A DNA stretch of 16,443 nucleotides from Gallionella sp. (lineage in GTDB: Bacteria > Pseudomonadota > Gammaproteobacteria > Burkholderiales > Gallionellaceae). This document shows, in pieces, positions 1-16,443 of this stretch; the stretch's first letter is position 1, and each line of letters begins with the position of its first letter. The position numbers and the translations under genes are program-made. The notes below the pieces were generated by a model. The model was not told the origin of the DNA. It worked only from the letters and a program-made list of their open reading frames with translations, and ran no database searches. Location of the stretch: positions 1 to 16,443 of the forward strand of contig JAUYGW010000127.1 of assembly GCA_030690245.1 (NCBI GenBank), given 5' to 3'.

Positions 1-99
1 TTGCATGTCTTGTCCTTTCGTTGAAATATTGGGGCCCGTGATCGCGCTGACTATATCGGCCAGCATTTCTTTTGTTTGGTTATCGTTTTGGTCTTTCAT
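1..99 (-). CDS. 5' end of a small gene sharing its N-terminus with the 1455 gene (partial, runs off left edge)
   Basis: Reading the minus strand from an ATG at 99 gives 33 open codons to the window edge (MKDQNDNQTKEMLADIVSAI..., rich in polar residues). The first nine residues, MKDQNDNQT, are identical to those of the gene starting at 1455 on the other strand. The upstream leader with a GGAG ribosome-binding site is nearly identical too, because both lie in arms of one inverted duplication. After codon nine the two proteins diverge. I do not recognise a family. The shared start and RBS make this a credible true start, but function cannot be assigned from this fragment. Confidence 0.5.
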   Translation of the reverse strand, partial: MKDQNDNQTKEMLADIVSAITGPNISTKGQDMQ

Positions 100-547
100 C
101 GCATCACTCCTAGATTGAGAGCCCGCTTTTGATTTCCTCGCGGTGCAGACCTTCGCTCGTTCTATCTGCTTCGCTCCTGAGTTGTTTCGCCCTGTGACAT
201 CAGCGCACCAGGTGGAAAGAATACAAGGGGTTGGTGCGGCCAGCGCGGAAGACGGCTTCATTGTCTGAGCACTGCCACGGCCCCTTGTATAGCGCGCAGT
301 TAAAATTGCGCGCAGCGCATCAACACACAAAAAATGGCCGCGCAGCGACTGTGCCGCGCGGTCTTTCCGGCTGGTGCGATGATTCACGGTTTGGGCGGAA
401 CAAATCAGGGGTGATGCAGATTTGCGGAGTGCTGCACAGTGAGGCAAAACAACAGGCCGCGCAGCGACTACCGCGCGCAGCGCGTGCCTTTCGCTGTTCA
501 AAAGGGCTTTTGAAGTTCGCTTTTCAAATGGGCATTTGATTTGCCGT
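74..547. repeat. Left arm of a long inverted duplication flanking dif
   Basis: Positions 74-547 read on the minus strand align with 1104-1480 on the plus strand with few mismatches. The left arm carries an extra block of about 70 bases near 330-400, and a second small one near 500-525 where a 'ttcaaa(a/t)ggg' motif is doubled. The arm holds no intact gene. A degenerate coding remnant without a start codon runs leftward on the minus strand (319 to 200) and ends ...SDNEAVFRAGRTNPLYSFHL. GC-rich runs such as CGCGCAGCG recur inside. The outer end contains the leader, RBS and first nine codons of the outward gene. Otherwise I see nothing coding between 100 and 559. Confidence 0.85.
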
Positions 548-586: not shown

Positions 587-606
587 TCAGCTTCAATCAG
601 CTTCAA
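587..606. repeat. Perfect 10-bp tandem duplication causing a frameshift
   Basis: TCAGCTTCAA occurs twice with no spacer (587-596 and 597-606). Ten bases is not a multiple of three, so the second copy throws the surrounding gene (560-833) out of frame. Removing one copy restores a continuous reading frame. Confidence 0.9.
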
Positions 607-690
607 TTCGAAATCACTACTGGCCGCTGAGATATGCGCGGGATTTTGATGGTGCGCGTATCCGCAAACAATATCGGCTTATCGAGAAGG

Positions 691-719
691 AAAAAAAACG
701 CCTGCATGAAGCAGGCGTT
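691..719 (-). terminator. Terminator-like hairpin on the minus strand inside the broken gene
   Basis: A perfect 9-bp stem (AACGCCTGC, 5-nt loop, GCAGGCGTT) is preceded on the plus strand by eight A residues at 691-698. On the minus strand it therefore reads as a stem followed by U8, the form of an intrinsic terminator. It lies within the coding remnant 560-833, so it could be fortuitous. It would stop transcripts moving leftward from the right arm. Confidence 0.45.
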
Positions 720-852
720 GATCGGGAAATCGTGCGGTTGCTATGCCGTCACATGGTTAATCCGAGGAATCGAAAAGCGGAGCAGCGGTTCTGGAATGCG
801 CATTTGAAAAGCTTGCAAAAGCCGCTTTTTTAGCCACACTAATAGTTTGCGC

Positions 853-880
853 GTTTGACATAATATACATTATGCGTATT
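853..880 (-). other. dif site (XerC/XerD chromosome-dimer-resolution site)
   Basis: Read on the minus strand the 28-mer has a XerC-side arm, a 6-bp centre TGTATA and a XerD-side arm. It contains the 19-bp core CGCATAATGTATATTATGT, identical to E. coli dif. Against E. coli dif I count 23 of 28 matches; differences fall at the outer XerC end (positions 1, 2, 4) and in the XerD arm (24, 28). XerCD recombine here to resolve chromosome dimers, activated by FtsK, and integrative elements that exploit Xer insert at the same site. The same bases also look like a TTGACA-type promoter and a small palindrome, but the match to dif is far longer than either. Confidence 0.85.
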
Positions 881-958: not shown

Positions 959-1252
959 ATGTCGCTCCCTCTTTTCGCTGAAACCATCCCCGTCTCCGAA
1001 TCCGAAGTTCAAGCCTGGCTGGATACCGTGCCAAACCTTTCCGCTTCCAAGTTCCGCCGCGAAGCCTACCGCCGAGCCTATAACGTTGAAGGCAAAATCC
1101 GCGCGGCTAAATCAACGGCCCATTTGAACAGCGAAAGGCGCGCGCTGCGCGCGGTAGTCGCTGCGCGGCCTGTTGTCTTGCCTCACTTTGCAGCACTTCG
1201 CAAATCTGCATCGCTCCTGATTTGTGTGTTGATGCGCTGCGCGCAATTTTAA
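959..1252 (+). CDS. Small protein of unknown function whose 3' end is replaced by repeat DNA
   Basis: The ATG at 959 opens a 97-codon frame starting MSLPLFAETIPVSESEVQAW. The first ~48 residues come from unique DNA and look like normal protein (SASKFRREAYRRAYNVEGKI). From about 1104 the frame enters the right arm of the inverted duplication, and residues 49-97 (Arg/Ala/Val-rich, then ICVLMRCAQF) look like chance translation of repeat DNA. I therefore read it as a gene truncated by the duplication. There is no clear ribosome-binding site. No family recognised. Confidence 0.4.
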   Translation: MSLPLFAETIPVSESEVQAWLDTVPNLSASKFRREAYRRAYNVEGKIRAAKSTAHLNSERRALRAVVAARPVVLPHFAALRKSASLLICVLMRCAQF

Positions 1253-1480
1253 CTGCACGCTATACAAGGGGCCGTGGCAGTGCTCAGACAATGAAGCCGT
1301 CTTCCGCGCTGGCCGTACCAACCCCTTGCATTCCTTTCCACCTGGTGCGCTGATGTCACAGGGCGAAACAACTCAGGAGCGAAGCAGATAAAACGAGCGA
1401 AGGTCTGCACCGCGAGGAAATCAAAAGCGGGCTCTCAATCTAGGGAGTGATGCGATGAAAGACCAAAACGACAATCAAAC
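1104..1480. repeat. Right arm of the long inverted duplication flanking dif
   Basis: Inverted copy of 74-547, about 377 bp because it lacks the two extra blocks present on the left. It starts inside the 959 gene and ends at codon nine of the 1455 gene, so it delivers that gene's leader, a GGAG ribosome-binding site (1444-1447) and start codon. The coding remnant of the left arm is also present here (1233 onward, plus strand), but one extra C near 1331-1335 changes its last residues. dif lies 306 bp from the left arm and 223 bp from this one. Confidence 0.85.
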
Positions 1481-1655
1481 CCAAGACTTTTTGAAAGGGC
1501 AAGCCATGCAAGCCATCCAGTTCCTGGACGCAGTAAAAGATGCGCCAATCGATGCCGACAGCATCCTGACCGACGACCAGCTGGGTCGCGCCAGTCTGGT
1601 GAAGATCGAGGCCTTCGTGAAAACCAAAACCAGCGCTGAAAGCCGTTGCGGCTGA
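1455..1655 (+). CDS. Small acidic protein of unknown function; probably the 5' part of a frameshifted gene
   Basis: The ATG at 1455 has a GGAG ribosome-binding site 7 nt upstream and encodes 66 residues (MKDQNDNQT, then DFLKGQAMQAIQFLDAVKDA). The first nine codons match the partial gene at 99 on the minus strand. After about residue 55 the sense-like sequence continues in the +1 frame (ALKAVAAEVASGKSLVEAV...), so the stop at 1653-1655 probably results from an indel near 1618-1636. The +1 frame runs on into the DUF4258-like segment. Alternatively the 66-residue protein is real and separate. No recognised family. Confidence 0.45.
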   Translation: MKDQNDNQTQDFLKGQAMQAIQFLDAVKDAPIDADSILTDDQLGRASLVKIEAFVKTKTSAESRCG

Positions 1656-2539: not shown

Positions 2540-2842
2540 ATGAGCCGCCGCAAGGGTTCCTGTCGATGGGTCGAGCCGCAGGACTTCCGCGATCTGCGCC
2601 GTCAGGCTGGGCTGACACGCCTGCAAGCTGCCAAGGCTTTGGACGTCACCGGGCGAACTATCCAGAACTGGGAAACGGGGGGCGCGCGGATACCGTGGAT
2701 GGCTCACCGCATGTTGCGCATTCTGCGCGGCTACGCCCTGCCCGGCAAAGCTTGGGAAAGCTGGACGATTGACGTCGACACGCTGACCGCGCCGAACGGC
2801 TGGCACTTCACCGCCAACGAATTGCAGCACATGCCCACATAA
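2540..2842 (+). CDS. Helix-turn-helix protein, VC1465/XafT-like Xer recombination activation factor family
   Basis: A 100-residue protein. Residues about 14-50 form a Cro/XRE-like helix-turn-helix (DFRDLRRQAGLTRLQAAKAL, then GRTIQNWETG). They are followed by the family signature P-W-M-A-H-R-M-L-R-I-L-RGYALPGKAWESW and a conserved C-terminal tail. Length, the 'RTIQNWETG...IPW' linkage and the 'PG-x-AWE-x-W' segment match the phage-associated group containing VC1465/XafT (related to DUF3653). XafT lets the TLC phage recombine at dif through XerCD without FtsK. A strong Shine-Dalgarno (AAGGGGG) precedes the ATG. The gene lies 1.7 kb from the dif-like site. Family assignment is by recollection of the pattern; the activator role is inferred, and a plain phage repressor is the alternative. 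Confidence 0.7.
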   Translation: MSRRKGSCRWVEPQDFRDLRRQAGLTRLQAAKALDVTGRTIQNWETGGARIPWMAHRMLRILRGYALPGKAWESWTIDVDTLTAPNGWHFTANELQHMPT

Positions 2843-2905
2843 CTAGCGAATATCAACGAACGGGCGCGAACTTATTGATTATGTTAACGTTGTACAATGG
2901 TAAAC

Positions 2906-2932
2906 AAAAAATCCCGAGGCTGCACCGGGATT
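2906..2932 (-). terminator. Intrinsic terminator of sodB
   Basis: On the minus strand AATCCCG (2932-2926), a 9-nt loop and CGGGATT are followed by a U-run (plus-strand A at 2906-2910). It lies 24 nt past the sodB stop. Confidence 0.8.
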
Positions 2933-2955
2933 TCGCATTCAAGCAACCTGATGCG

Positions 2956-3540
2956 TTACGCAAAGTTCTTTGCTACGAACTCCCAGTTCACCAGGTTGTT
3001 GAGAAAGGTCTCAACGAATTTTGGACGCAGGTTGCGGTAATCGATGTAGTAGGCGTGTTCCCACACGTCCACGCACAGCAAGGCCTTGTCGCCGGTGGTG
3101 AGCGGCGTGCCGGCCGCGCCCATGTTGACGATATCCAGGCTGCCGTCGGCCTTCTTCACCAGCCAGGTCCAGCCGGAACCGAAATTGCCCACGGCGGAAG
3201 TCTGGAACGTCTTCTTGAAATCGTCGATGCTGCCCCACTTCTTGTTGAACGCATCCGCCAGTGCGCCAGCAGGCGCACCGCCGCCATTCGGCTTCATGCA
3301 GCTCCAGAAGAAGGTATGGTTCCACACTTGCGCGGCGTTGTTGTAGAGGGCGCCGGCAGGCGCCTTCTTCACGATGGCTTCCAGATCGAGGTTCTCGTAT
3401 TCGGTGCCCTTGATCAGGTTGTTGAGATTGGTCACATAGGCCTGATGATGCTTGCCGTAGTGGTATTCGAAAGTTTCCTTGGACATGTGCGGTTGCAGCG
3501 CGTCCATTGCATAGGGCAATGCAGGCAGGGTATGTTCCAT
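2956..3540 (-). CDS. sodB: Iron superoxide dismutase
   Basis: A cytoplasmic enzyme that dismutates superoxide to oxygen and hydrogen peroxide. It has 194 residues, normal for the family. Metal ligands are all visible: His27 (YHYGKHH), His75 (WNHTFFW), Asp158 and His162 (DVWEHAYY). Gln71 in [11 protein letters not shown] and the segment [12 protein letters not shown] favour the iron type over the manganese type. The start at 3540 is chosen because [10 protein letters not shown] is the usual family N-terminus and a GGAG ribosome-binding site lies 8 nt upstream. The in-frame extension to 3657 is not protein-like and would run through the promoter. The gene stands alone, with its own promoter and terminator, divergent from the Mut7-C gene. 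Confidence 0.96.
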
Positions 3541-3580
3541 CGTCGTTCTCCTTAGAGTGTCAGCGGGTTGCAGCTTAGCG

Positions 3581-3610
3581 ATTCTATGCCAAACGACCGG
3601 TAGCAAACAA
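3581..3610 (-). promoter_or_regulatory. Probable sigma-70 promoter of sodB
   Basis: On the minus strand TTGTTT (3610-3605), an 18-nt spacer and TAGAAT (3586-3581) lie about 40 nt before the sodB start. This falls in the 115-bp gap shared with the divergent Mut7-C gene. Confidence 0.45.
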
Positions 3611-3655
3611 TGACCTGTGTCACCTATTTTCACTATCGAGGTGCACCATTTTGGC

Positions 3656-4152
3656 ATGAATTCAACACCGCGTTTTTTGTGCGACGAAATGCTTGGCCGG
3701 CTGTGCCGCTATTTGCGCGCCGCCGGATACGATGCGCTGCTCGCCAACGGCGGTCGCAGCGACGCCGAGTTGCTGCGGCAATGCCGTGAGGAGGGACGCT
3801 ACTTCCTGACGCAGGATCAACTGGTGCAGGAACACAAGGCGGCGCGCGGCGTGGCGCTGCTGCTGCCGCAGGGCGATCTCGACCTGCTCGCCGTCGCGCT
3901 CGGCGCGCACCTCAAACTCGACTGGCTCACCCATGCCTTCACCCGCTGCCTGGAGGACAACACCCCGCTGGTTGCGGCAGACGCCGCAGCGCTGGCGCGC
4001 CCGCCGATGCGATCAGGCCGGATAAGCCGCTGTGCCATTGTCCCACGTGTGAAAGAGTCTACTGGCGCGGCTCGCACTACAAGCGCATGCGCGCCAGGCT
4101 GGTTGCATGGCAGTCGGCTAAAGCATCTGCCCTGCCCGTGACGGCGGTCTGA
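3656..4152 (+). pseudogene. Mut7-C RNase domain protein, frameshifted before the zinc ribbon
   Basis: The ATG at 3656 starts [20 protein letters not shown], the hallmark N-terminus of the Mut7-C (DUF82) PIN-like RNase domain. Acidic residues appear in CDEML, GGRSDAELL and LTQDQ. After about residue 112 the frame becomes nonsense, while the frame one base earlier carries the expected zinc ribbon (LCHCPTCERVYWRGSHYKRM) to a TGA at 4150-4152. A single-base deletion, or equivalent, between about 3985 and 4015 explains this. The first zinc half-site is also altered: RCLEDN occupies the place where the family usually has RCxxCN. The gene may therefore have been decaying before the frameshift, or the ribbon binds no metal. 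Uninterrupted, it would encode about 165 residues. Confidence 0.75.
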
Positions 4153-4212
4153 AACTATCGGCATCGAGCAGTGAAAAATTATAAGTACTGGGGATCGTAA
4201 CTCACCGCCAGC

Positions 4213-7200
4213 CTACACCTCGCTCAACACCCCATCCGCAAACAGCAGCGCGCAGCGCACCGTCTTGCCGGCATACACCGTCTGCATCGCAGTGCGGTAT
4301 TCCTGCATCTGTGCACGGTGACGCGCGGCATCTTCGCTGTCGCCCAGCTTGTAGTCCAGCACCCATACCTCGTCGTCGAATTCCACCAGCCGGTCAATAC
4401 GCTTCAGTTCGCCGCGCGCATTGACGTAAGGCATTTCGTTGCTGGCGCTGCGGTATTGTTGCGCGTCGAAGAAGCGCGCGAGTTGCGGCGTGGCGAGCAG
4501 GCGTTGGGCATGCTGCCAGAGCGGCTCGATCTCTTCGGCGGGGATGGCGAGGCGTTGCTGTAAAACCTCCCTCCCCCCCTGCCCCTTTCCCGCCTGCGGG
4601 CGATAACCAGCGACTTGCCCGTTTACGGGCTTAGTCGAATGGCTAGTTGTTTCATCAGGGGAGTCTGTAGTGAGGTGTTGCAGCAGCGCATGCAGCCAGA
4701 TGCCGCGCTGTTGTTGCGCAGTGTTGCGTGCGGCGCGTTTGCCGGTAGGAGTGATTTGTGGGAGTGCGTAGGTTGGGTTAGCAGGTTCATCGCGTAACCC
4801 AACATTGCCATGAATCAAAGTGTTGTTTGTCGGGTTACGTCCTGATGGGCTAACCCGACCTACATTGTTTTGAGGCTCGTGGAATGGAGTAACGGCGCAA
4901 AGAGGGTTCGGCATTTCGCCCACCGCCGCCGCAATACGGTCGTACCACGACAGCGCCTTCTTCTTTTCTTCCTTGTCCTTGCCCATGCTGTTGCCGCTGA
5001 CGATGAGCACCTGTTGCGCGCGGGTCATGGCGACGTAGAGCAGGTTCATCTCTTCGCGCGCCTGTTGCGCGGCATCCAGCTCGAACAGTGGCGCGCGCTT
5101 CTTGCCGCGCGAGGCCTGGTCGGCATACAGCGAGAAATGCAGCGGCTGCGGCTCGTGCGCGGGCCAGTCGAGCAGCACGTCGTTGCCCTCCTTGTTCTTC
5201 TTTTCCGCATTCGCGTCCAGCAGCCAGACGATAGGCGCTTCCAGCCCTTTCGATTCGTGCACGGTATAGATGCGCACCGCATCGCCCGCCGTGCCGAGTT
5301 TACCTTCGTCCGGCGCGTCGTCGCGGCTGTCGCGCAATTCGCGCAGTTCCTGCAGGAAACGCGGCAGGCTGGGGTAGCGCCCGGCATCCACGCTCAGCGC
5401 GATCTCCATGAACGCGTGCAGATTGGCGGCGACCTTGGCGCGCATCTCGGGCGGCAGCACGGCGCTGTAGCGCGCCAGCACGTCGCCCTCGAAATAAATG
5501 CGGTCGAGCAGGTCATGCACCGGCAACTTGTCGGCGAGCGCGAGCCAGTTCTTCAGCAGGCTGGCGGCGCGTTGCAGGGCGGGCGATGCGGAACTTTGGG
5601 CGACGGCATGATGCAAACGCGCCCACCATGAGGATTCAGGATTCAGGATTCGGGATTCAGGCACACCCACCTCTCCACTGAACCCTGAATCCTGAATTCC
5701 GATTCCTGATTCCTGCATCCTGAATCCTGCAATCAACATCAAGTCTGCATCGCCGCACGCGAAGATCGGTGTGCGCAGCACCTGTGCCAATTTGATGTCG
5801 GCAAAGGGTGTGATGAGGAAAGTCAGCAATGCCTGCACGTCTTCCGCCTCCAGCGTGTCGAGCAAGCCGCCGCGCCGCGAGCTGATGAAGGGGATGTGGC
5901 GCGCACGCAGGGCAGCTTCGTACACCGCAAGGTGGGTGCGGCTACGCACCAGCACCATGATGTCGCCGTAGCGGGCACGGCGTTGTTTGCCTTCCTCGTT
6001 CACCGACCAGTCGCTGACGATGGTTTTCAGCAGTTCGGCGAACTGCACGGCTTCGTTGTGGCGCGCGCCCTCCCCGGCTTCATCTCGCGGTGTAGTCAGC
6101 GGATCGCGCAAGACGAGTGGCGCATCCTCTGCCGTTTCTTCCTTGCCCTGCTCGGCAACCGCCAGCGGCAGCACCGCCACATGGCCGGGCAAGCCGGTTT
6201 GCTCGGCCGTGTGCGGCTCGAAATCCACGAAGCCTTCGGGATGGCCGGCGAACACGGCATTCACCGCATCCAGCACGGCGGGCGCGTTGCGGCGGGTGTG
6301 GTTGTTGTGCAGCTCATGCGCCGCGAAATATTTCTTCAGATAGTCGCGCGCGATGCCAAACAGCCGCGCATCGGCGCGGCGGAAGCGATAGATGGATTGC
6401 TTGGGATCGCCGACGACGAACACGGTGGGCTGCGACTCCACCGCCACCGCCGCATCGAACCACGCGCGCAGGATCTGCCATTGCAGCGGGTTGGTGTCCT
6501 GGAACTCGTCCAGCAGCACATGGCGATAGCGGCTGTCGAGCTTGTATTGCATGGTCTCGGCGTGTTCGCTCTGTTGCAGCAGGCGGCACAGCTGCCATTC
6601 CAGATCGGAGAAATCCATCTGCTGCTTTTGCTGCTTGAGCGCCTGATAGCGTTCAAGGAAGGCCGCGCCGCAATGCAGCACCGCCTCGTTCAGGCGATAC
6701 GCCTGCTGCTCGGCGAGCGTCTCGCGTACGGTCTGCAGCCTGTCGAATAACGTATCGCGCGCCAAAAGAAAGGCTTCAGCATCCTGTTTCTTGGTTGGCT
6801 TGAAACTGCGCGGCTCACCTGCCTGCGTGAACAGCAACGGGCACAATTGGTCGAAACGCGCTTCCGGTGCTGTGTCCGTCCAGGCGTGTTCCAGCTCGCT
6901 CGCCTTGGTTTTTTGAACATCAGTTCCGTTGCTGGCAAGTTGGAGCGCGAACGCAAAGAAGGCGCCTCGGCTCTGTATATTCTCTCCCCACTCCGCTACA
7001 GGGTCTGCTTCCATGTCCACCGCGAGATCGGCGCGCAGGTTATCCAGCGCGAACGTCAGCGTATCAGCCTGCCCCCCGCCTGCGGGCGAGTAGAGATGGG
7101 AGGTATAAGCCCACCACTCGGCGCGCTTGGCGAGGAAGTTGAACAGCAGTTTGCGCGTGTTATACAGGCCGCATTCGCCGAACAGCCATTGCATGTGCTG

Positions 7201-7698
7201 CGCTTCAATTCCATCCGGCTGCTTGCGCATCTGTTCCAGCAGTTCTTCCCAGGCTTCTTCCTGCTCGCTGCCCGCGCGCTCCAGCAGCGACGAGCCCTGC
7301 ATCACGTCGGCGTTCAGCGGCGCGCGCTGCATGACCTGCATGAACCAGCCGTGGAAGGTGCTGATGGTGATGCCGGGCTGCGCCAGCAGCACGTTGCCGT
7401 ACAGGCTGCGGGCGCGTTGCAGTTGCGCGTCGCTCAGATTATCGACGCCGCGCTCGGCGAAGAACTTGCGCACCGCCGCCTCGTCGCCCATCGCCAGATC
7501 GCGCAGCCATTGCTGCAGGCGCGCCTGCATCTCCTGCGCCGCCTTGCGCGTGAAGGTGATCGCGAGAATATGCGAGGGTTGCGCACCGTCCAGCAGCAGG
7601 CGCACGATGCGCGACACCAGCAGCCAGGTCTTGCCGCTGCCCGCACAGGCTTCGACGACGGTGCTGTGTTTCGGATCGAGGGCGATGTGGTTATTCAT
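4213..7698 (-). CDS. addA: AddA helicase-nuclease subunit (UvrD-like)
   Basis: A 1161-residue subunit of the AddAB complex, which resects double-strand breaks for RecA loading. UvrD/Rep motifs run in order: Walker A ACAGSGKT (17-24), AITFTRKAAQEM, LDEFQDTNPLQW (near 395), VVGDPKQSIYRFRRAD, TVHESKGLEAP and LLYVAMTRAQ. The C-terminal RecB-type nuclease is intact: WLHALLQ near 1000, IDRLVEF and VLDYKLGD near 1115, then Q..Y. The start at 7698 is chosen because MNNHIALDPKHSTVVEACAG is the normal N-terminus and ATGAATAA overlaps the addB stop by 8 bp, indicating translational coupling. Odd: three repeat-derived inserts sit in linkers (residues about 657-690, 946-978 and 1021-1043), plus a shorter one near 202-208, all in frame. 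Confidence 0.95.
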   Translation of the reverse strand: MNNHIALDPKHSTVVEACAGSGKTWLLVSRIVRLLLDGAQPSHILAITFTRKAAQEMQARLQQWLRDLAMGDEAAVRKFFAERGVDNLSDAQLQRARSLYGNVLLAQPGITISTFHGWFMQVMQRAPLNADVMQGSSLLERAGSEQEEAWEELLEQMRKQPDGIEAQHMQWLFGECGLYNTRKLLFNFLAKRAEWWAYTSHLYSPAGGGQADTLTFALDNLRADLAVDMEADPVAEWGENIQSRGAFFAFALQLASNGTDVQKTKASELEHAWTDTAPEARFDQLCPLLFTQAGEPRSFKPTKKQDAEAFLLARDTLFDRLQTVRETLAEQQAYRLNEAVLHCGAAFLERYQALKQQKQQMDFSDLEWQLCRLLQQSEHAETMQYKLDSRYRHVLLDEFQDTNPLQWQILRAWFDAAVAVESQPTVFVVGDPKQSIYRFRRADARLFGIARDYLKKYFAAHELHNNHTRRNAPAVLDAVNAVFAGHPEGFVDFEPHTAEQTGLPGHVAVLPLAVAEQGKEETAEDAPLVLRDPLTTPRDEAGEGARHNEAVQFAELLKTIVSDWSVNEEGKQRRARYGDIMVLVRSRTHLAVYEAALRARHIPFISSRRGGLLDTLEAEDVQALLTFLITPFADIKLAQVLRTPIFACGDADLMLIAGFRMQESGIGIQDSGFSGEVGVPESRILNPESSWWARLHHAVAQSSASPALQRAASLLKNWLALADKLPVHDLLDRIYFEGDVLARYSAVLPPEMRAKVAANLHAFMEIALSVDAGRYPSLPRFLQELRELRDSRDDAPDEGKLGTAGDAVRIYTVHESKGLEAPIVWLLDANAEKKNKEGNDVLLDWPAHEPQPLHFSLYADQASRGKKRAPLFELDAAQQAREEMNLLYVAMTRAQQVLIVSGNSMGKDKEEKKKALSWYDRIAAAVGEMPNPLCAVTPFHEPQNNVGRVSPSGRNPTNNTLIHGNVGLRDEPANPTYALPQITPTGKRAARNTAQQQRGIWLHALLQHLTTDSPDETTSHSTKPVNGQVAGYRPQAGKGQGGREVLQQRLAIPAEEIEPLWQHAQRLLATPQLARFFDAQQYRSASNEMPYVNARGELKRIDRLVEFDDEVWVLDYKLGDSEDAARHRAQMQEYRTAMQTVYAGKTVRCALLFADGVLSEV
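4569..4636. repeat. Palindromic repeat inserted in frame in addA
   Basis: A C-rich run is followed by two palindromes (CCCGCCTGCGGG and GCCCG-ttta-CGGGC) inside addA codons about 1021-1043, encoding KPVNGQVAGYRPQAGKGQGG. The low-complexity Gly/Gln/Pro peptide lies between the GxxxH part of the nuclease and the next conserved block, where a linker can tolerate it. The CCCGCCTGCGGGCGA unit recurs at 7079-7094. Confidence 0.6.
4768..4863. repeat. Long palindromic GTAGGTYGGGTTAG repeat inserted in frame in addA
   Basis: 4768-4807 (GTAGGTTGGGTTAGC ... GCGTAACCCAACATTG) is an inverted copy of 4816-4863 (ending GGGCTAACCCGACCTAC). This GTAGGTTGGGTTAG family is a dispersed intergenic repeat in many proteobacteria. 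Here it lies in addA and is translated in frame as NNVGRVSPSGRNPTNNTLIH and the following residues (about 946-978), without a stop. Confidence 0.75.
5631..5730. repeat. Inverted clusters of the heptad GATTCAG in addA
   Basis: 5631-5664 contains four tandem or near-tandem copies of the 7-mer GGATTCA. 5680-5730 carries the opposite orientation (CCTGAAT and variants). Both are translated in frame in addA (RMQESGIGIQDSGF, then PESRILNPES). The same heptad recurs at the addB 3' end (7716-7746), giving an identical IQDSGF peptide. Confidence 0.75.
7079..7094. repeat. Short palindromic unit in addA matching the one near 4590
   Basis: CCGCCTGCGGGCGA here matches the unit near 4590-4603 and is translated as part of LYSPAGGGQA in addA (residues about 202-208). 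Confidence 0.35.
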
Positions 7699-10426
7699 CA
7701 CCCTTCTCCCCCAAGTTGAATCCTGAATCCTGAATCCTGAATTCCGAAGTCCACTCCCCCTTGCGGCATAAACCGCGCATCTCGCAATAACCGCACACTG
7801 CATCGATACCGTTCGCGGGCAGGCCCGCGCCGCCGCGTATGTCGCCCATCGCTTGCACCAGGCGCTCGGCATTGAGTTGCGCCAGCAGCGGGACATCGTG
7901 CTTGGGTTCCACCAGCTTTACTTTTCCATTCTCGATACTGACGAATGCCGCATCCGCCGCTTCATGCGCGTAGGCGTAGCACGCGAGTTGCACGTCTTCG
8001 CCCGGCTCGCGCAGCTTGTTGCGCAGCAGTTGTTCGCCCTGCGTCTTGTAGTCCAGCACGCGTTTCTCTTCTTCCCTCACATCCAGCCGGTCGATGCGCC
8101 CGCGCAGACGCACGCCTTCCAGTTGCCAATCGAAGGCGCTCTCCGCTTCGGCGTAGCGCCAGCCTTGCGCTTCGTTCTCTGTCTGCCATTCGAGATACGC
8201 GGGCAACGCCGCGAACCAGCGTGCCAGCCAGGCGTGTGCGGCAAAATCCTGCTGCAGCAGATCGGCGAACACTTCTTCGCTGATCCGGCGCAAGGTTGCT
8301 TCCAGTTCATCGGCAGGATGCCCGCTCACTTGCGGGTAGCGTTCATGGAAGCGGCGCAGGATGTCATGCACGCGCTCGCCGTAATCGCGCTTCTCGATGC
8401 CTTCCTGGACTTCGTCGAGTTCGTTGAGGCGCAGGATGTGCCGCGCATAGAACTGGTAGGGACAAGCGACCAGTGAGTTGTAGGCGCTGATCGAGACACT
8501 TGCCGGTACGGCCTCTGCCGTTACCTTTGGCGCTGGCTGTGCAGCCTGCGGCAACTCCACGTGATGCGCCTCTTCCGCTGCAAGAAACGCATGCAATTCG
8601 CTCTCGTCTAACGTAATACTCGTGCAACGAGACGTTTGCCCCCTCTCCCGCTCGCGGGAGAGGGTTGGGGAGAGGGGAACGGGTGTGCCCGTCAGATCGT
8701 CGCCGTGGGCCAGCGTATGCAAGTCGCGCAGCATCTCCAGATACGGGCTGAGCAAGCCTTTCTCGCCGTTGCGATCCTTCTGCCAGGTGACCAGCACGCA
8801 GTCATTCAGCGCCAGCAGCGCCAGCAGATCGTCGCTTTGCCGTATGGTGTGGGTGCTGCGCGTGGGCAGGTTGAGCGCACTGCGCACCGCATCGTTGAAC
8901 CAGCGTCCGCCGTCCGCCACGCTGGGTAGATGGTCGGCATCGCATCCCAGCAGCAGCACCGCATCGAAGGCGCGCCAGCGCGTCGCCGCGAGGTGGGTGA
9001 AGCGCACCGGGCTGTCGATGCCGCTGTCGCGGTAAGTCTGCGTGCCCAGTTGCTGCGCCAGCCAGCGCCGCCACTCGGCAAAGCGGTAACGTCCTGCGTC
9101 GGCCGCCAATTCCTGCTGCCAAGTCTCCAAAGCGCGCAGCAACTGCGCGCCGGCCTCGTCCTGTTGCAGGCCGGTGTCGATGCCCAGCACACGCAGGCTT
9201 GCGCGCAAGGCTTCCAGCCATTCCGCCAGTGTTCTTTTTTTGTTCTGCTCCAGCAGCATCGCGGCCTGGCGCAGGCGCGCCAGCGGCTGATGCAGCACCG
9301 TTTCGTGTTCGGCCAGCGCGACGAATTTTTCCAGCCCGGCCACCACGCCCTGTTTGCGCAGCAGTTGTTCCAGTTGATACACCGCCGATTTGCGTTCGCT
9401 CGCCGCCATATCGGCGAAGATGAACGGCGACTTGAGCAGGTCGAGCAGGTCGTGATGATAGAAGTCGCTTTGCAGCGCGGTGAGCCAGCGATCCAGCGCC
9501 GTACTCACCGACAGCGTGTCGAAGGTCCAGCCGGTCTCGTCCGCCACCAGCACTTGCGCTCGCTCCAGCAAGGCGCGCATGCGCCTCGCCGCGACGCGAT
9601 CCTGCGCGACGATGGCGATGTCGCACTTGCCCGCATGCAGCCAGCGGCGCACCTGCATGGCTGCGGCGCGTGCTTCCTGTTCGAGGCTGGTTGCGGCGAA
9701 GAAGCGCAGCCTGTCGCCGAGCGCCGGAACATTTTGTGAGCGGAGGGCGGCACGGTCGCGCAGCAACCCGCTCCATTGCGGCGCCATCTCGCGCAAGTCG
9801 AACACTTCTACCGCCGCGCGTTTGGCGTATTCGTCGAGGAAGCGTTGCTCGAGCGCATCCCAGCCGGAAGCGCGCAGCACGAACAAAGGCTGGCTTGCCT
9901 GTGCCGCGAGCTTTCCCAGCCGTTGCTGATAGGCGCGCGCCGCATCCAGTTCAGCGCCTGCCTGCATCGCGTGCCACAGCTCGAAAACCAGCCGCGCCTC
10001 CAGTTGCAGCGTGGCGTTCTGCCGCGCCTGCTGCACGGCGGCGGCGAACGCTTCCGCATCGCGCGGCAAGGTATCGAGCGCATGGGTGAGTTCGTCGAAC
10101 AGCGCAAGCAACTCCTGCGTCATGCTCCACAGGTCGGCCTGCCCGAACCACTGCTGCTTGCGCAGGTGCTGATAAAGCAAGGCGCTGCGCTGGCTGTCGG
10201 TAGCGACGGGCGCATCGAGCGGAACAGATTGCGCCCAGTCGTTGAGCGTGACCATCTGCGGCAGCAATAGCGCGGGGAGTTTGGCCGCTGCGCTTAACGC
10301 CTGCGCCAGCGGCTGGGCAACATGGTTATTGGGTAACAGGACGGTCGCCCGGCGCAGATCGGGCAAGTCCTGCGCATGGCGGGACAGGATATGTTTGGCT
10401 ACGCTATCGAGAAAGATTGAAATCAA
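7691..10426 (-). CDS. addB: AddB nuclease subunit of the AddAB break-repair complex
   Basis: A 911-residue partner of AddA. The N-terminal helicase-like region (RRATVLLPNNHVAQPLAQAL) lacks a Walker A lysine loop, as in the proteobacterial AddB type. The C-terminal nuclease has GERVHDILRRFHE, GRIDRLDV and VLDYKTQGEQ (near 790) followed by QLACYAYA. Four cysteines expected to hold the 4Fe-4S cluster are visible: Cys655 (VACPYQFYARH) and Cys878, 881 and 887 (CGYCEMRGLC). I chose the TTG at 10426, with GAGG 8 nt upstream, because RLISIFLDSVAKHILSRHAQ looks like the family N-terminus while the 32 residues before it do not and overlap a dispersed repeat. Odd: repeat-derived peptides occur near residues 583-597 and 894-904. 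Confidence 0.92.
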   Translation of the reverse strand: MISIFLDSVAKHILSRHAQDLPDLRRATVLLPNNHVAQPLAQALSAAAKLPALLLPQMVTLNDWAQSVPLDAPVATDSQRSALLYQHLRKQQWFGQADLWSMTQELLALFDELTHALDTLPRDAEAFAAAVQQARQNATLQLEARLVFELWHAMQAGAELDAARAYQQRLGKLAAQASQPLFVLRASGWDALEQRFLDEYAKRAAVEVFDLREMAPQWSGLLRDRAALRSQNVPALGDRLRFFAATSLEQEARAAAMQVRRWLHAGKCDIAIVAQDRVAARRMRALLERAQVLVADETGWTFDTLSVSTALDRWLTALQSDFYHHDLLDLLKSPFIFADMAASERKSAVYQLEQLLRKQGVVAGLEKFVALAEHETVLHQPLARLRQAAMLLEQNKKRTLAEWLEALRASLRVLGIDTGLQQDEAGAQLLRALETWQQELAADAGRYRFAEWRRWLAQQLGTQTYRDSGIDSPVRFTHLAATRWRAFDAVLLLGCDADHLPSVADGGRWFNDAVRSALNLPTRSTHTIRQSDDLLALLALNDCVLVTWQKDRNGEKGLLSPYLEMLRDLHTLAHGDDLTGTPVPLSPTLSRERERGQTSRCTSITLDESELHAFLAAEEAHHVELPQAAQPAPKVTAEAVPASVSISAYNSLVACPYQFYARHILRLNELDEVQEGIEKRDYGERVHDILRRFHERYPQVSGHPADELEATLRRISEEVFADLLQQDFAAHAWLARWFAALPAYLEWQTENEAQGWRYAEAESAFDWQLEGVRLRGRIDRLDVREEEKRVLDYKTQGEQLLRNKLREPGEDVQLACYAYAHEAADAAFVSIENGKVKLVEPKHDVPLLAQLNAERLVQAMGDIRGGAGLPANGIDAVCGYCEMRGLCRKGEWTSEFRIQDSGFNLGEKGDE
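7716..7746. repeat. Heptad repeat (AATCCTG)n at the 3' end of addB
   Basis: Three tandem AATCCTG units plus a partial one encode EFRIQDSGF near the AddB C-terminus, just before the overlap with addA. It is the same heptad family as 5631-5730. Confidence 0.7.
8637..8679. repeat. CCCTCTCCCGCTCGCGGGAG palindromic repeat inserted in frame in addB
   Basis: CCCTCTCCCG-ctc-CGGGAGAGGG followed by TTGGGGAGAGGGG is a dispersed palindromic repeat common in beta- and gammaproteobacteria. It is normally intergenic but is translated in addB as VPLSPTLSRERERGQT (about residues 583-597), between the helicase-like and nuclease parts. Confidence 0.8.
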
Positions 10427-10443
10427 CCTGAAAGCCTCATTTG

Positions 10444-10598
10444 CACCACGAAGAGCACGAAGAAAATCAAATAATTGCCGTGCACCCCTAATTCGTCCAG
10501 CAGGTGAGCGGTGCCACGCCACAACGCCCTGAAAACGGGCAAAAGGCGAGTTTCGAGGTACGGCAAAATTCTTCGTGCCCTCGGTGTCCTTCGTGGTG
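10444..10598. repeat. Inverted repeat CACCACGAAG...CTTCGTGGTG between fdxA and addB
   Basis: CACCACGAAGAGCACGAAGA at 10444-10463 and its inverted variant at 10569-10598 flank about 105 bp. The similarity extends inward (TTGCCGT near 10477 and ACGGCAA near 10560). The CACGAAG heptad is a dispersed repeat of betaproteobacteria. I see no gene inside. The element fills most of the fdxA-addB gap and may separate the two transcription units. Confidence 0.6.
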
Positions 10599-10615
10599 AG
10601 CTGCTTTTTCCAGGA

Positions 10616-10939
10616 TCAACGTTCGAGGAAGCGCAGCTTGTCCTTCAGGCCGCGCCATTTGTCGGCATCGGCAGGCGCGTCCTTTTTCTCGACGATAGGC
10701 TTCCACCTCTTAGCCAGTTCGGCATTCAGCGCGGTGAAATGGCGCTGGTCCTCCGGCAAGTCATCCTCGGCAAAAATCGCATCCGCCGGGCATTCCGCGA
10801 CGCACAGGGTGCAATCGATGCATTCGTCAGGGTCGATCACCAGGAAATTCGGCCCTTCACGGAAGCAATCCACCGGGCACACCTCGACGCAGTCGGTGTA
10901 TTTGCACTTGATACAATTTTCCGAAACAACATAGGTCAT
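10616..10939 (-). CDS. fdxA: FdxA, 7Fe ferredoxin (3Fe-4S and 4Fe-4S)
   Basis: A 107-residue soluble electron carrier. The N-terminal part has the cysteines for the 3Fe-4S and 4Fe-4S clusters in the FdxA order ([17 protein letters not shown], residues 9-25). The second set follows as [17 protein letters not shown]. The C-terminal ~45 residues ([20 protein letters not shown] and onward) are the usual FdxA tail. The start at 10939 gives the standard MTYVV N-terminus, with a GGAG ribosome-binding site upstream; the in-frame extension to 10972 would run into the promoter. It is transcribed toward addB but separated from it by about 190 bp with a dispersed repeat, so probably monocistronic. The electron partner is not visible here. 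Confidence 0.95.
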
Positions 10940-10970
10940 GGCGGCGCTCCAATTGATCGAAAGTCGCGGC

Positions 10971-10992
10971 ATTCTAGCAGAGTTAAAGCCGC
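10971..10992 (-). promoter_or_regulatory. Extended -10 promoter of fdxA, block shared with parA
   Basis: On the minus strand the block GCGGCTTTAACTCTGCTAGA continues into AT, ending in the extended -10 element TGCTAGAAT about 30 nt before the fdxA ATG. The same block, one base shorter, precedes parA at 12276-12296. No good -35 is seen, which is consistent with an extended -10 promoter. Confidence 0.5.
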
Positions 10993-11033
10993 ATCGATGA
11001 ACCCGCGCAAAGCTCGAATAGACAAGCTACAAT

Positions 11034-11060
11034 GCGCCCTGCGCCCTGCGCCCTGCGCCT
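11034..11060. repeat. Tandem heptad repeat GCGCCCT (nearly four copies)
   Basis: Three perfect copies of GCGCCCT (11034-11054) and a shortened fourth (GCGCCT) lie in the gap between fdxA and the small gene at 11170. Confidence 0.85.
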
Positions 11061-11169
11061 TGCCCATACCACATTAAGATTTACCCTGAGCGTAAACCCG
11101 GTTTGCGGTATTCGTTTTGCGGCTCGTTAATTTTTTGCAGTGATTTCTTTGAATTATTTTGGAGGGGTT

Positions 11170-11385
11170 ATGCCGAAATTCGATTTCTCCGTGACTACAC
11201 GGGATGGACAAAAAGTCGAGAGTATCCAGATTTACGGCAAGGATTTGCCTGATGCGGAACGCAAATTGCGCCAGATGTACTACCATTGCGAAGTAACGCA
11301 AAGCAGGATAATCAATCCTGAAAAAGAATTTTCACAGTCGGCGGATATAGAGGATGTGTTGTCGCTGATTGTTAGGCAAAACTGA
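11170..11385 (+). CDS. Small protein of unknown function
   Basis: A 71-residue soluble-looking protein beginning MPKFDFSVTTRDGQKVESIQ. The start at 11170 follows a strong GGAGGGG ribosome-binding site; an in-frame ATG at 11140 has none. The composition is mixed, with no signal peptide or membrane segment. It reads as beta strands followed by a helix (DAERKLRQMYYHCEVTQSRI). I do not recognise the family. It stands between divergently transcribed fdxA and convergent parA, with no evident operon partner and no clear terminator. Confidence 0.75.
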   Translation: MPKFDFSVTTRDGQKVESIQIYGKDLPDAERKLRQMYYHCEVTQSRIINPEKEFSQSADIEDVLSLIVRQN

Positions 11386-11463
11386 CATTTGAACTGAGCG
11401 GCGGCGGACAAATGCCTGCCGTTCCTGCTTCAAAGGCCACAAAGCGTGCCGAATCTCCATGCG

Positions 11464-12231
11464 TTATTCGATAAACCCGTCTGCCATCAATTCATCCAGC
11501 AGCTTATCGTAATCTTGCGCCCCACGGCTATTGGGCGCGTGCTCGAAGACGGTTTTGTTCAGCGACGGGCTTTCTGCCAGGCTGACATTTTCCGAAATAA
11601 GCGTCCGGCATACATCCGCGCCGAATTCCGTTTCCGCCATCAGCAGAATATCCCTGGCCATGCGCCGCCGCGAATCAAAACGTGTGAGCAGATAACGGCG
11701 GTTTACGCGGCGCTTCAGCACCCGTTCGAGCGCCTTGAGGGTTTTTTGAATCTGGACGGCGCCCTTCATGGACAGGTAATCCGCCGACACGGGAACGATG
11801 ATGCCATCGCTGGCAAATATGGCATTCAACGACAGGACGCCAACCAGCGGGCTGCAATCGATTATCCAGTGCTTGTTCACGCCCTCTGTTTTTTCCGCCT
11901 GCAAACTCAAGTTCAGCTTGTTGATTGCGTTGTAACCCTTGCCATACAGCGCGTCCACCTTGGACAACTCGATGTGCGACGGAATGATGCCGATTCCGCT
12001 GGCCGAGTCCTGAATCATTTCATGCAATGGGCGGTTGCGCTGAAAAAGGCTGTAAATGCTGTCATCGCCGGAATGGACGGTGACACCGGCAATGGCGCCG
12101 AATTGCGCCTGCGGGTCAAAGTCGATGCCTACCGTCTTGTGTCCGCGACGCGCCAGCGCGGCGGCAAGATTGAGCGCCGTGGTGGTTTTGCCTACCCCGC
12201 CCTTCTGGTTAAATATAGCGACTATCGTCAT
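11464..12231 (-). CDS. ParA/Soj-family ATPase without an adjacent ParB
   Basis: A 255-residue P-loop ATPase. The deviant Walker A of the ParA/MinD group is at residues 10-17 (KGGVGKTT) with the signature lysine, followed by the A' motif GIDFDPQAQ and Walker B-like WIIDCSPLVG. Such proteins form ATP-dependent dimers that bind DNA and position chromosomes, plasmids or protein complexes. The start at 12231 gives the canonical MTIVAIFNQKGGVGKTT; upstream in-frame residues (MQYKYNPELCR) lie in the leader. No parB, parS-like site or other partition gene is visible, and the flanking genes are convergent or divergent. It is therefore an orphan, unlikely to be the main chromosomal parA near gidAB; the cargo is unknown. 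Confidence 0.88.
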   Translation of the reverse strand: MTIVAIFNQKGGVGKTTTALNLAAALARRGHKTVGIDFDPQAQFGAIAGVTVHSGDDSIYSLFQRNRPLHEMIQDSASGIGIIPSHIELSKVDALYGKGYNAINKLNLSLQAEKTEGVNKHWIIDCSPLVGVLSLNAIFASDGIIVPVSADYLSMKGAVQIQKTLKALERVLKRRVNRRYLLTRFDSRRRMARDILLMAETEFGADVCRTLISENVSLAESPSLNKTVFEHAPNSRGAQDYDKLLDELMADGFIE

Positions 12232-12275
12232 GGTCCGGCAAAGCTCAGGATTATATTTATATTGCAATTTTGAAT

Positions 12276-12296
12276 ATTCTAGCAGACTAAAGCCGC
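12276..12296 (-). promoter_or_regulatory. Extended -10 promoter of parA
   Basis: On the minus strand GCGGCTTTAGTCTGCTAGAA continues to T, giving TGCTAGAAT about 45 nt before the parA ATG. It matches the fdxA promoter block (10971-10992) in all but a single-base gap and one or two substitutions. Confidence 0.5.
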
Positions 12297-12402
12297 ACGC
12301 CGATTTTACCTCCAGGGTTAAATACCCCAGAAAAAGCCGTGGAAGGCTTCAACAGACCTATTGTTCCCCGCTCAAATGAGCCAATGAATTGGTTATCCAG
12401 GC

Positions 12403-12432
12403 TTTACCGGAGCCGGCCAAACCACCTATAAT
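12403..12432 (+). promoter_or_regulatory. Probable sigma-70 promoter of mlaA
   Basis: TTTACC (12403-12408), an 18-nt spacer and a perfect TATAAT (12427-12432) lie 29 nt before the mlaA start. Confidence 0.55.
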
Positions 12433-12461
12433 CGCCGGAAATTCGCAACTGACCGGACGAC

Positions 12462-13331
12462 ATGAACGCCATCCACATTCTCATAGCACTCGCCACGGTC
12501 ACGCTGACCGGCTGCGCCTCCACTCACGCAAAAAACCCGGCCGACCCGCTGGAATCTTTCAACCGCGGCGTATACCAGTTCAATGACGCCGTAGACAAGG
12601 CCATCGCCAAACCGGTTGCGCAAGGCTACAACGCCGTGATGCCGGTTCCCGGCAAGATCATGGTGAGCAATTTTTTCTCGAATCTGGATGATGTCGTTAT
12701 TACCATCAACGACCTGCTGCAATTCAAATTCGCCCAGGCCGCGTCCGATGGCTCACGCTTTCTGTTCAACAGCACCTTCGGCGTGTTCGGCCTGCTCGAT
12801 GTGACTCCCCGGCTGGAAAAACACAACGAGGATTTTGGCCAGACGCTGGGCTACTGGGGCGTCGGCAGCGGCCCATACCTCATGCTGCCGCTGCTCGGGC
12901 CGAGCAGCGTGCGCGACGGCGTGGGACTGTATGCAGACAGCCGCCCGAGCCTGCTGCGCCGGGTGAATCACAGCCGCACCCGCAACCAGTTGTATCTGAC
13001 CACGTCGATCAACCGCCGCGCGCAACTGCTGGATCAGGAAAAAGTGCTGGATGAAGCGGCGTTTGACCGCTACGAATTCATCCGCGATGCCTACCTGCTG
13101 CGCCGCCAAAGCCTGGTATATGACGGTAACCCGCCGCGCGAAAAATACGAGGACGAGGAAAGCGATTTCGAATACCAGCAAGTGCCGATTCCCGGCGCAT
13201 CTTCTTCGCGACAGCACAGCACGCCTGTGGCCCGTCATGCCGTCACGGCACAACTTGCCGTACCGCGAATGGATGCCGATCGCCCCAGCGTCCGCAAGAT
13301 ATGGATTGCGCAGCGCACCGGCATACGCTAG
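12462..13331 (+). CDS. mlaA: MlaA (VacJ) outer-membrane phospholipid-removal lipoprotein
   Basis: A 289-residue outer-membrane lipoprotein of the Mla system, which takes mislocalised phospholipids from the outer leaflet and hands them to MlaC. The N-terminus is a lipoprotein signal peptide (MNAIHILIALATVTLTGCAS) with lipobox LTGC. Family blocks are clear: DPLESFNRGVYQFNDAVDKA, VSNFFSNLDDVVITINDLLQ, NSTFGVFGLLDVTP, DFGQTLGYWGVGSGPYLMLP and LLGPSSVRDGVG. The last ~60 residues are charged, then low-complexity, and not conserved in the family as I know it. Unlike many betaproteobacteria, no mlaFEDC genes adjoin it here. It has its own promoter and is divergent from parA. Confidence 0.95.
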   Translation: MNAIHILIALATVTLTGCASTHAKNPADPLESFNRGVYQFNDAVDKAIAKPVAQGYNAVMPVPGKIMVSNFFSNLDDVVITINDLLQFKFAQAASDGSRFLFNSTFGVFGLLDVTPRLEKHNEDFGQTLGYWGVGSGPYLMLPLLGPSSVRDGVGLYADSRPSLLRRVNHSRTRNQLYLTTSINRRAQLLDQEKVLDEAAFDRYEFIRDAYLLRRQSLVYDGNPPREKYEDEESDFEYQQVPIPGASSSRQHSTPVARHAVTAQLAVPRMDADRPSVRKIWIAQRTGIR

Positions 13332-13373
13332 CGTAGCGTCACATAATTGACCGGGCATGCTCGAATACATGTA

Positions 13374-13417
13374 GGGCGGAAGCGCTACACTCCGCCCGCG
13401 ACGAAGCAGGCTGCTTC
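13374..13417. other. Two palindromes between mlaA and the GGDEF-EAL gene
   Basis: GGGCGGA-(10 nt)-TCCGCCC at 13374-13397 is a perfect 7-bp stem. The near-adjacent palindrome GAAGCAG-g-CTGCTTC lies at 13403-13417. Neither is followed by a T-run, so they are not simple intrinsic terminators. They could be an rho-assisted end for mlaA or structure in the leader of the downstream gene. Confidence 0.5.
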
Positions 13418-13435
13418 TCAGAACAAGGAACGGGC

Positions 13436-13462
13436 ATGAACAACAACGGCAGAGAAAAATAA
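13436..13462 (+). CDS. Eight-codon leader ORF coupled to the GGDEF-EAL gene
   Basis: ATG at 13436 encodes MNNNGREK and stops at TAA 13460-13462, overlapping the next ATG as TAATG. A strong Shine-Dalgarno (AAGGAA, 13425-13430) serves this leader, while the main ATG at 13462 has only a weak one. Translation of the GGDEF-EAL gene is therefore probably coupled to termination on the leader. Confidence 0.5.
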   Translation: MNNNGREK

Positions 13463-16359: not shown

Positions 16360-16385
16360 TCCGGCATCAGCCGGAAAGCCCCATG

Positions 16386-16415
16386 AAAAAGGCCTGCATG
16401 ATGCAGGCCTTTTTT
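16386..16415 (+). terminator. Intrinsic terminator of the GGDEF-EAL gene
   Basis: GGCCTGCA-tga-TGCAGGCC (16391-16409), flanked by five A upstream and at least five T downstream, forms a strong hairpin that can work on both strands. Confidence 0.9.
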
Positions 16416-16443
16416 GCCTCCATCGCCGCGATGTTTAACGCGC

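Follow-up and report, generated by a model that had tools for sequence, protein, structure and literature searches.

A dif site near the end of a Gallionella contig

The stretch of DNA analyzed here (the window) is an entire contig (C18) of 16,443 nucleotides, which belongs to a 2.34-Mb genome assembly that is split into 357 contigs, is 82.5% complete and carries 4.45% contamination. Close to its left end lies a 28-bp dif site. On one side the site is flanked by the remnant of a small-protein gene and one arm of an inverted repeat, and on the other by the second arm, two short coding regions, an antitoxin-like gene and a truncated HTH gene, after which a junction leads into host chromosome. 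The dif site occupies positions 853 through 880 of the minus strand and reads, as the reverse complement, AATACGCATAA-TGTATA-TTATGTCAAAC. Its layout is 11-6-11, with the XerC arm at 870-880, the centre at 864-869 and the XerD arm at 853-863. Identity to E. coli dif is 23 of 28 positions, and the two share an unbroken core of 19 bp (CGCATAATGTATATTATGT), as an initial annotation of this DNA had proposed for this position and strand. In random sequence, matches at 23 or more of 28 positions are expected no more than about 1.7e-3 times in 2.34 Mb and about 1e-5 times in the window.

A search of the whole assembly with up to three mismatches recovers one dif site, that in the window, and the reversed dif sequence used as a control yields 0 matches under the same conditions. 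A single copy was thus found, and neither of the results that the initial annotation named as refuting it, a better dif elsewhere or many scattered copies, appeared in this 82.5% complete genome. With up to two mismatches, the dif core is present in 45 of the 61 genomes searched and in 29 of the 37 congeneric ones, our genome being counted in both sets (27 congeneric genomes carry it once, two carry it twice and in eight none was found). The two genomes with a second copy, G018 and G034, have 3% and 4% contamination. A XerD gene scoring above the family cut-off is located on another contig of the same genome (C356), and a second Xer-like match on C25, which falls below the XerD cut-off, is taken to be XerC.

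Because dif lies only 853 bp from the contig end, the GC-skew switch is out of view in the window. In G027 (400 kb around dif), cumulative GC skew reaches its maximum at 475,576, which is 36 bp from dif at 475,540, and in G021 (220 kb) the maximum at 36,237 is about 220 bp from dif at 35,999-36,020. KOPS motifs (GGGNAGGG) in G027 number 31 forward and 4 reverse to the left of dif, and 7 and 23 to its right; the corresponding counts in G021 are 3/0 and 4/20. The one flank available in the window, to the right of dif, has a skew of -0.027 and KOPS counts of 0 forward and 6 reverse, all directed toward dif, and this polarity is consistent with that expected near a terminus. The assignment of dif and the terminus to this DNA by the initial annotation agrees with the single copy, the position of dif at the skew switch in two relatives, the KOPS of the window and the Xer genes of the genome. 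From these data, it is extremely unlikely that the site is a chance dif-like sequence, a promoter or a repeat element, as evident by the low expectation per genome given above, by the presence of one copy only and by the conservation of the site and its skew position in relatives; we found no point in favor of such an origin.

The neighbors of the site bear on a different alternative, in which a mobile or rearranged segment beside sodB carries this dif copy or brought it there, and the primary dif remains unassembled beside malQ. Of 30 further congeneric loci, 20 have a malQ gene, a sensor-kinase gene or both adjoining dif or its element or just past that element, and the window dif lacks these usual neighbors. 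Moreover, malQ was not found in our incomplete bin by a protein search or by a DNA search in which 40 of 142 candidates were scored, and dif and sodB are 101 kb apart in G021. Because the usual neighbors are absent and malQ is missing from an incomplete bin, a second dif could lie in the missing sequence. However, only one dif was found in the assembly, few congeneric genomes have two dif sites (2 of 37, both in the slightly contaminated bins mentioned above), and in the adjacent chromosome both KOPS and GC skew are directed at the window site. Furthermore, the remaining 10 congeneric loci, some with short flanks, likewise have no malQ or kinase neighbor, and on balance a moved copy seems unlikely to us. 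We conclude that positions 853-880 are very probably the chromosomal dif, where XerC and XerD would resolve chromosome dimers of this Gallionella-type bacterium; binding and activity of XerCD at the 28-mer are predicted from its sequence. As a separate observation, the malQ family gene of G024 (locus L059) lies on the XerC side of dif rather than on the XerD side, which suggests that the malQ segment has been inverted, dif being located at one end of the inverted piece.

Probable prophage and mini-element remnants on the XerC side

The first feature past the XerC arm is the start of a gene termed MSLP (959-1114, plus strand), which would normally span ~60-77 amino acids and which enters the right repeat arm. 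In relatives this gene is located next to the XerC arm of dif or att; the encoded sequence is 67% identical over 60 amino acids in G013 and 57% identical over 53 in G009, and it is found in the same place on the phage contigs L424 and L426. A short plus-strand ORF (1455-1655) begins within the right repeat arm, appears to have a broken frame and matches no family above cut-off. It is followed on the same strand by a gene for an MqsA/YgiT-type zinc-ribbon antitoxin-like protein (1962-2189; PF15731, E=2.7e-6, 28 bits, with a curated cut-off of 30), upstream of which a frame resembling a broken toxin partner can be recognized by eye. The last feature is an HTH-DUF3653 gene (2540-2842, plus strand) that is truncated at its 3′ end and covers DUF3653 positions 1-34 of 66, compared to 1-66 in a relative.

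The nature of this region is most readily seen in relatives. We scanned 31 congeneric dif loci, including the window, with flanks of 24 bp to about 14 kb, for half-dif sites that carry the XerC arm and centre without the XerD arm. Six of the loci have such a site in the orientation of dif, in every case on the XerC side and 1.1 to 8.7 kb away, and the 8.7-kb element of G017 encodes a Zot-family protein and a rolling-circle Rep. Several loci in which a hybrid sensor-kinase gene (profiled in G021) lies 35-104 bp from dif represent empty sites. At filled sites the kinase is displaced to 2087 bp from dif in G027, where the element measures 2032 bp, and to 8790 bp in G017, where it measures 8716 bp; a third filled site, in G001, has the kinase at 2334 bp and an element of 1778 bp, with an unexplained excess of 556 bp. 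Elements of this kind would keep the XerC half and the centre in their att site, and integration would leave a half-dif at the far end and rebuild a full dif at the near end.

The IMG/VR contig L424 carries, in order, an att half, MSLP, the intergenic segment, ParB, secretin, Zot, a coat-type gene, Rep, an att half, an HTH element and a further att half. ParB and secretin were profiled on the G013 copy and the coat-type gene was named by eye; L424 and G013 are near-identical in appearance, and therefore are not independent. Window blocks 986-1099, 1221-1477, 2204-2267 and 2564-2832 match L424 in the same order and orientation, and thus the window holds an internally deleted remnant. Judged by this alignment, the region from 853 to 2842 is a decayed, collinear copy of a filamentous prophage plus a dif mini-element of 1-2 kb, in which the prophage part (MSLP gene and intergenic segment) would have become fused to the leftover of the mini-element.

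The window contains no half-site at up to 2 mismatches in 13, and so the second att or half-dif that relatives have at the far end is missing. It also has no Zot-like frame, and the accessory ORFs scanned include no phage Rep family, whereas Zot and Rep are present in relatives. Ten further ORFs of 231-2830 gave no phage family match, positions 1-2950 gave no match in the phage and plasmid nucleotide collections, and ARAGORN and Rfam (at gathering scores) reported nothing in the window. Because half-sites, Zot-like frames and phage-family ORFs are all lacking here, we infer the integration of the remnants on both sides of dif from relatives.

A search for relatives of the HTH gene returned 19 loci, of which the nine from Gallionellales were scanned and the ten distant ones (Bacteroidota and Acidobacteriota by title) were set aside. 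In all nine (L151-L159), att sites 1.1-2.0 kb apart, either dif or half-dif, bracket the HTH-DUF3653 gene; both bracketing sites of L151 are half-sites. These mini-elements may be phage satellites. A protein search of phage records gave only two weak matches for an HTH-DUF3653 relative, and solved structures gave weak HTH antitoxin matches only. The protein XafT is linked to DUF3653, and the literature matches listed include no mention of this domain.

Homology of the window to the mini-elements ends at 2832 and homology to G021:C8 begins at 2903, which corresponds to G021 137,005, placing a junction between element remnant and host chromosome, or rearrangement breakpoint, at 2833-2903. From 2903 to 16443 (REARRANGEMENT), the window is collinear with G021:C8:137005-152467, interrupted by indels; identity is 89-93% in the majority of blocks and drops to 77% in one. 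The accessory region proposed by the initial annotation therefore holds for about positions 1-2842 only, and the remainder is chromosome. Genes assigned by profile in this part are sodB, an AddA-type helicase-nuclease, a ferredoxin, a ParA-type ATPase and MlaA (as well as malQ in G021), and other names such as the glg genes and addB were read from translations. Positions 4603-4661 hold a copy of a dispersed repeat of ~60 bp that occurs at dozens of places in our genome and also in G021.

The DNA that precedes the junction in G021 is present on our contig C185, where homology ends at G021 137,003 and is followed by a group II intron remnant (by eye) and then by tRNA-Glu and tRNA-Ala. Because this match stops at the corresponding base, the ancestral junction was broken there. 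A rearrangement would have cut the XerC-side remnant within the HTH-DUF3653 gene, at about 2833, and joined it to sodB. We ruled out that a 100-kb segment between these two loci was simply deleted (dif to sodB), since parts of that interval are found on other contigs of our genome, and contig C80 was rejected as the missing dif flank because it has an integrase-like ORF (by eye) past its tRNA genes and no half-site. The intron-like remnant of C185 (L134, 3806-4889) lies between a tRNA-Glu terminator and the DNA of the sodB side in G021, and its ends resemble an insertion after a transcription terminator.

RYAR genes, XerD half-sites and the inverted repeat

On the opposite side of dif lies the remnant of an 87-amino-acid small-protein gene of the RYAR family (597-833, plus strand). 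This gene points at the XerD arm from 19 bases away, with its stop codon at 831-833 and dif beginning at 853, and its 5′ end is out of frame behind a short tandem duplication. The family has 78 database homologues and is present in 5 of the 61 genomes searched, ours included. A full dif lies no more than about 112 bp from the end of RYAR homology in G028 (a fragment), G043 and G060, where the gene is located on the XerD side and directed at dif, and the same distance holds for the database loci L306, L311, L419 and L427. In G051 there is a weak site near RYAR, with 7 mismatches in 27, and the second RYAR copies of G043 and G060 are away from any full dif.

Among nine viral contigs with RYAR, three (L177-L179) have an att-like site soon after the gene that consists of the centre and XerD arm, exact in two and with one mismatch in L179, and a degenerate XerC arm; the other six (L180-L185) have no dif-like site by the same criteria. 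Among contigs collected by half-site patterns, L306 and L311 have RYAR next to a full dif and a D-only half-site at a distance of 6.4 and 9.0 kb, respectively, and in L329 RYAR adjoins a D-only site; all three loci carry a Zot-like gene. In G043, dif and a D-only site are 6.8 kb apart, with Zot and Rep in between. Both prophage ends are therefore visible in G043, L306 and L311, and no D-half was seen in G060, L419 or L427. The phage-record protein search gave a single weak match to a RYAR relative, in an Inoviridae record. Taken together, a second type of filamentous phage would have left its dif-proximal end on the XerD side of the window. Its att would keep the centre and XerD half, so that this type sits on the other side of dif and likewise rebuilds the site; its far end would lie beyond base 1, where the contig stops. 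The arms of the 28-mer would then derive from the two phages.

To evaluate the XerD-half class more broadly, we collected matches to the pattern TGTATATTATGTNAAAT in IMG/VR, which comprise at least 120 stretches with at least 122 classifiable sites (60 full, 59 D-only and 3 between), and 50 stretches for the reversed-pattern control. Among the matches listed, a Zot-like gene accompanies 18 of 55 D-only loci, a count that leaves out loci also holding a full site, versus 0 of 50 control loci (Fisher p 2e-6), and 46 of 60 full loci. The corresponding figure for C-only loci is 9 of 62, or 7 of 60 when two profile seeds are omitted. A half-site pattern alone proves nothing because such patterns also match by chance, as the low Zot frequency of the C-only loci indicates, and many of the D-only sites may be chance matches. 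Nonetheless, the enrichment of Zot-like genes over the control shows that an XerD-half class exists.

The two sides of dif are further connected by an inverted repeat, a feature absent from the initial annotation. Its left arm (68-542, minus strand) leads into an ORF start that runs off the contig end, and its right arm (1109-1486, plus strand) aligns collinearly with a filamentous-prophage intergenic segment (L424 989-1386). Blocks of the arms are 89-99% complementary, and the left arm has 68 extra bases at 332-399. In G005, G013 and G017, related segments adjoin Zot or ParB genes, and further ones occur at one chromosomal position of G027 and close to a G010 gene cluster. The G010 copy (L048, G010:C44 2006-2314) is beside a cluster that appears by eye to be conjugation-related, and so the segment may not be phage-specific. 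The right arm matches the XerC-side phage of L424. Of the left arm, a stretch of 30 bp recurs in L419, L427 and G028, in each case on the same side of dif as RYAR, and this single piece would link the arm to the RYAR phages. The simplest reading is that the repeat surrounds dif because two phages, each bringing a related intergenic segment, inserted on either side of it and so placed the segments in opposite orientations.

Since this is a metagenome-type bin with 4.45% contamination, we also considered whether the junction at 2833-2903 or the inverted repeat might be an assembly artefact. In favor of this, the contig that makes up the window terminates no more than about 70 bases from the repeat, and the bin is split into 357 contigs. 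However, the arms differ by substitutions and by the extra bases noted above, which rules out a mirrored assembly copy as the source of the repeat, and C185 breaks at the base that corresponds to the junction. In addition, gene order on both sides of dif agrees with the phage contigs L424 and L427, and we therefore regard an artefact as highly improbable.

A probably occupied dif site and its counterparts

Our preferred explanation, to which we assign a probability of roughly 0.8, is that the window contains the chromosomal dif flanked by the remnants of two elements, with a prophage and mini-element on the XerC side, a second phage type on the XerD side, and a repeat that arose from their related segments, the XerC-side remnant having been cut by a rearrangement that joined it to sodB. 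It builds on what the sequences show, namely the site, the number of copies found in the assembly, the ends of the elements in relatives, the collinearity and the breakpoint; the order of events around dif is presumably as outlined here. The window dif would accordingly serve also as a landing site for elements that borrow XerCD. The initial annotation had considered the surrounding small genes to be candidate Xer-integrated cargo, which is correct in kind, as evident by homologues of the genes of both sides within filamentous phages or mini-elements bounded by dif or half-dif. What lies here departs from that description in being remnants of two element types on opposite sides, with broken frames, a truncated HTH gene and no second att site in the contig.

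A more general proposal, for which we consider the odds to be about even, is that filamentous phages of two mirror-image classes occupy dif in bacteria of the Gallionella type and their relatives, namely an XerC-half class on the XerC side and an apparently common XerD-half class, including the RYAR phages, on the XerD side. A single dif could accommodate both classes at once, in which case their related intergenic segments would create an inverted repeat that could flip dif, and the 1-2 kb HTH-DUF3653 mini-elements are perhaps satellites. If true, the choice of half-site, the side occupied and the recombinase that can complete the reaction would not be limited to the XerC-side logic of the vibriophages. 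Two element types that share a segment on both sides of dif would also offer a route to rearrangement of the terminus. A verified dif would mark the terminus of a little-studied genome of the iron-oxidizer type, and the mini-elements are candidate small satellites. The most interesting part to us goes beyond the initial annotation and consists of the very small dif elements and of a single dif at which two phage types would mirror each other.

The window site resembles the chromosomal dif of Proteobacteria, as represented by E. coli dif, in its 28 bp, its 11-6-11 layout, its 19-bp core, its single copy and its location at the skew switch in two relatives. It differs from E. coli dif by five substitutions and by the remnants on both sides, and its host neighbors are unlike those of many congeners. 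According to the available passages of PMC4246890 and PMC5357621, the CTXphi, VGJphi and TLCphi classes and the gonococcal genomic island use host XerCD at dif, and they share with the XerC-side relatives homology on the XerC side and a full dif at one end, whereas the XerC-side copy in the window is decayed. XacF1 of Xanthomonas has a 15-base att core, located inside a possible regulator gene, that on our reading comprises the centre and XerC half, as in the XerC-side elements; the passages of PMC4076744 describe an autonomous phage, in contrast to the remnant in the window. The TLCphi satellite, as portrayed in the available parts of PMC4246890, is small, integrated at dif and devoid of virion genes, as the HTH-DUF3653 mini-elements may be, although these are only 1.1-2.0 kb long. 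XafT, the XerD activator of this satellite, is named in a passage of PMC9765430.

According to passages of PMC5357621, PMC4246890 and PMC7062461, the vibriophage classes, the gonococcal island and the gokushoviruses keep the XerC side. Among the literature matches listed (titles and abstract openings, with few subscription journals), none describes an XerD-half type as a class. The XerD-side relatives are therefore the mirror image of the vibriophage classes as presented in those passages of PMC4246890 and PMC5357621, in that the XerD half and centre are kept and the XerC half is degenerate. The 19-base att repeat of phiRSS0 of Ralstonia solanacearum (PMC3816273) fits the XerD arm and centre, a match that is our own reading, as the available passages of that paper do not state which half-site is kept. 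On this reading, because its repeat fits the centre and XerD arm, phiRSS0 provides a precedent for the XerD-half type.
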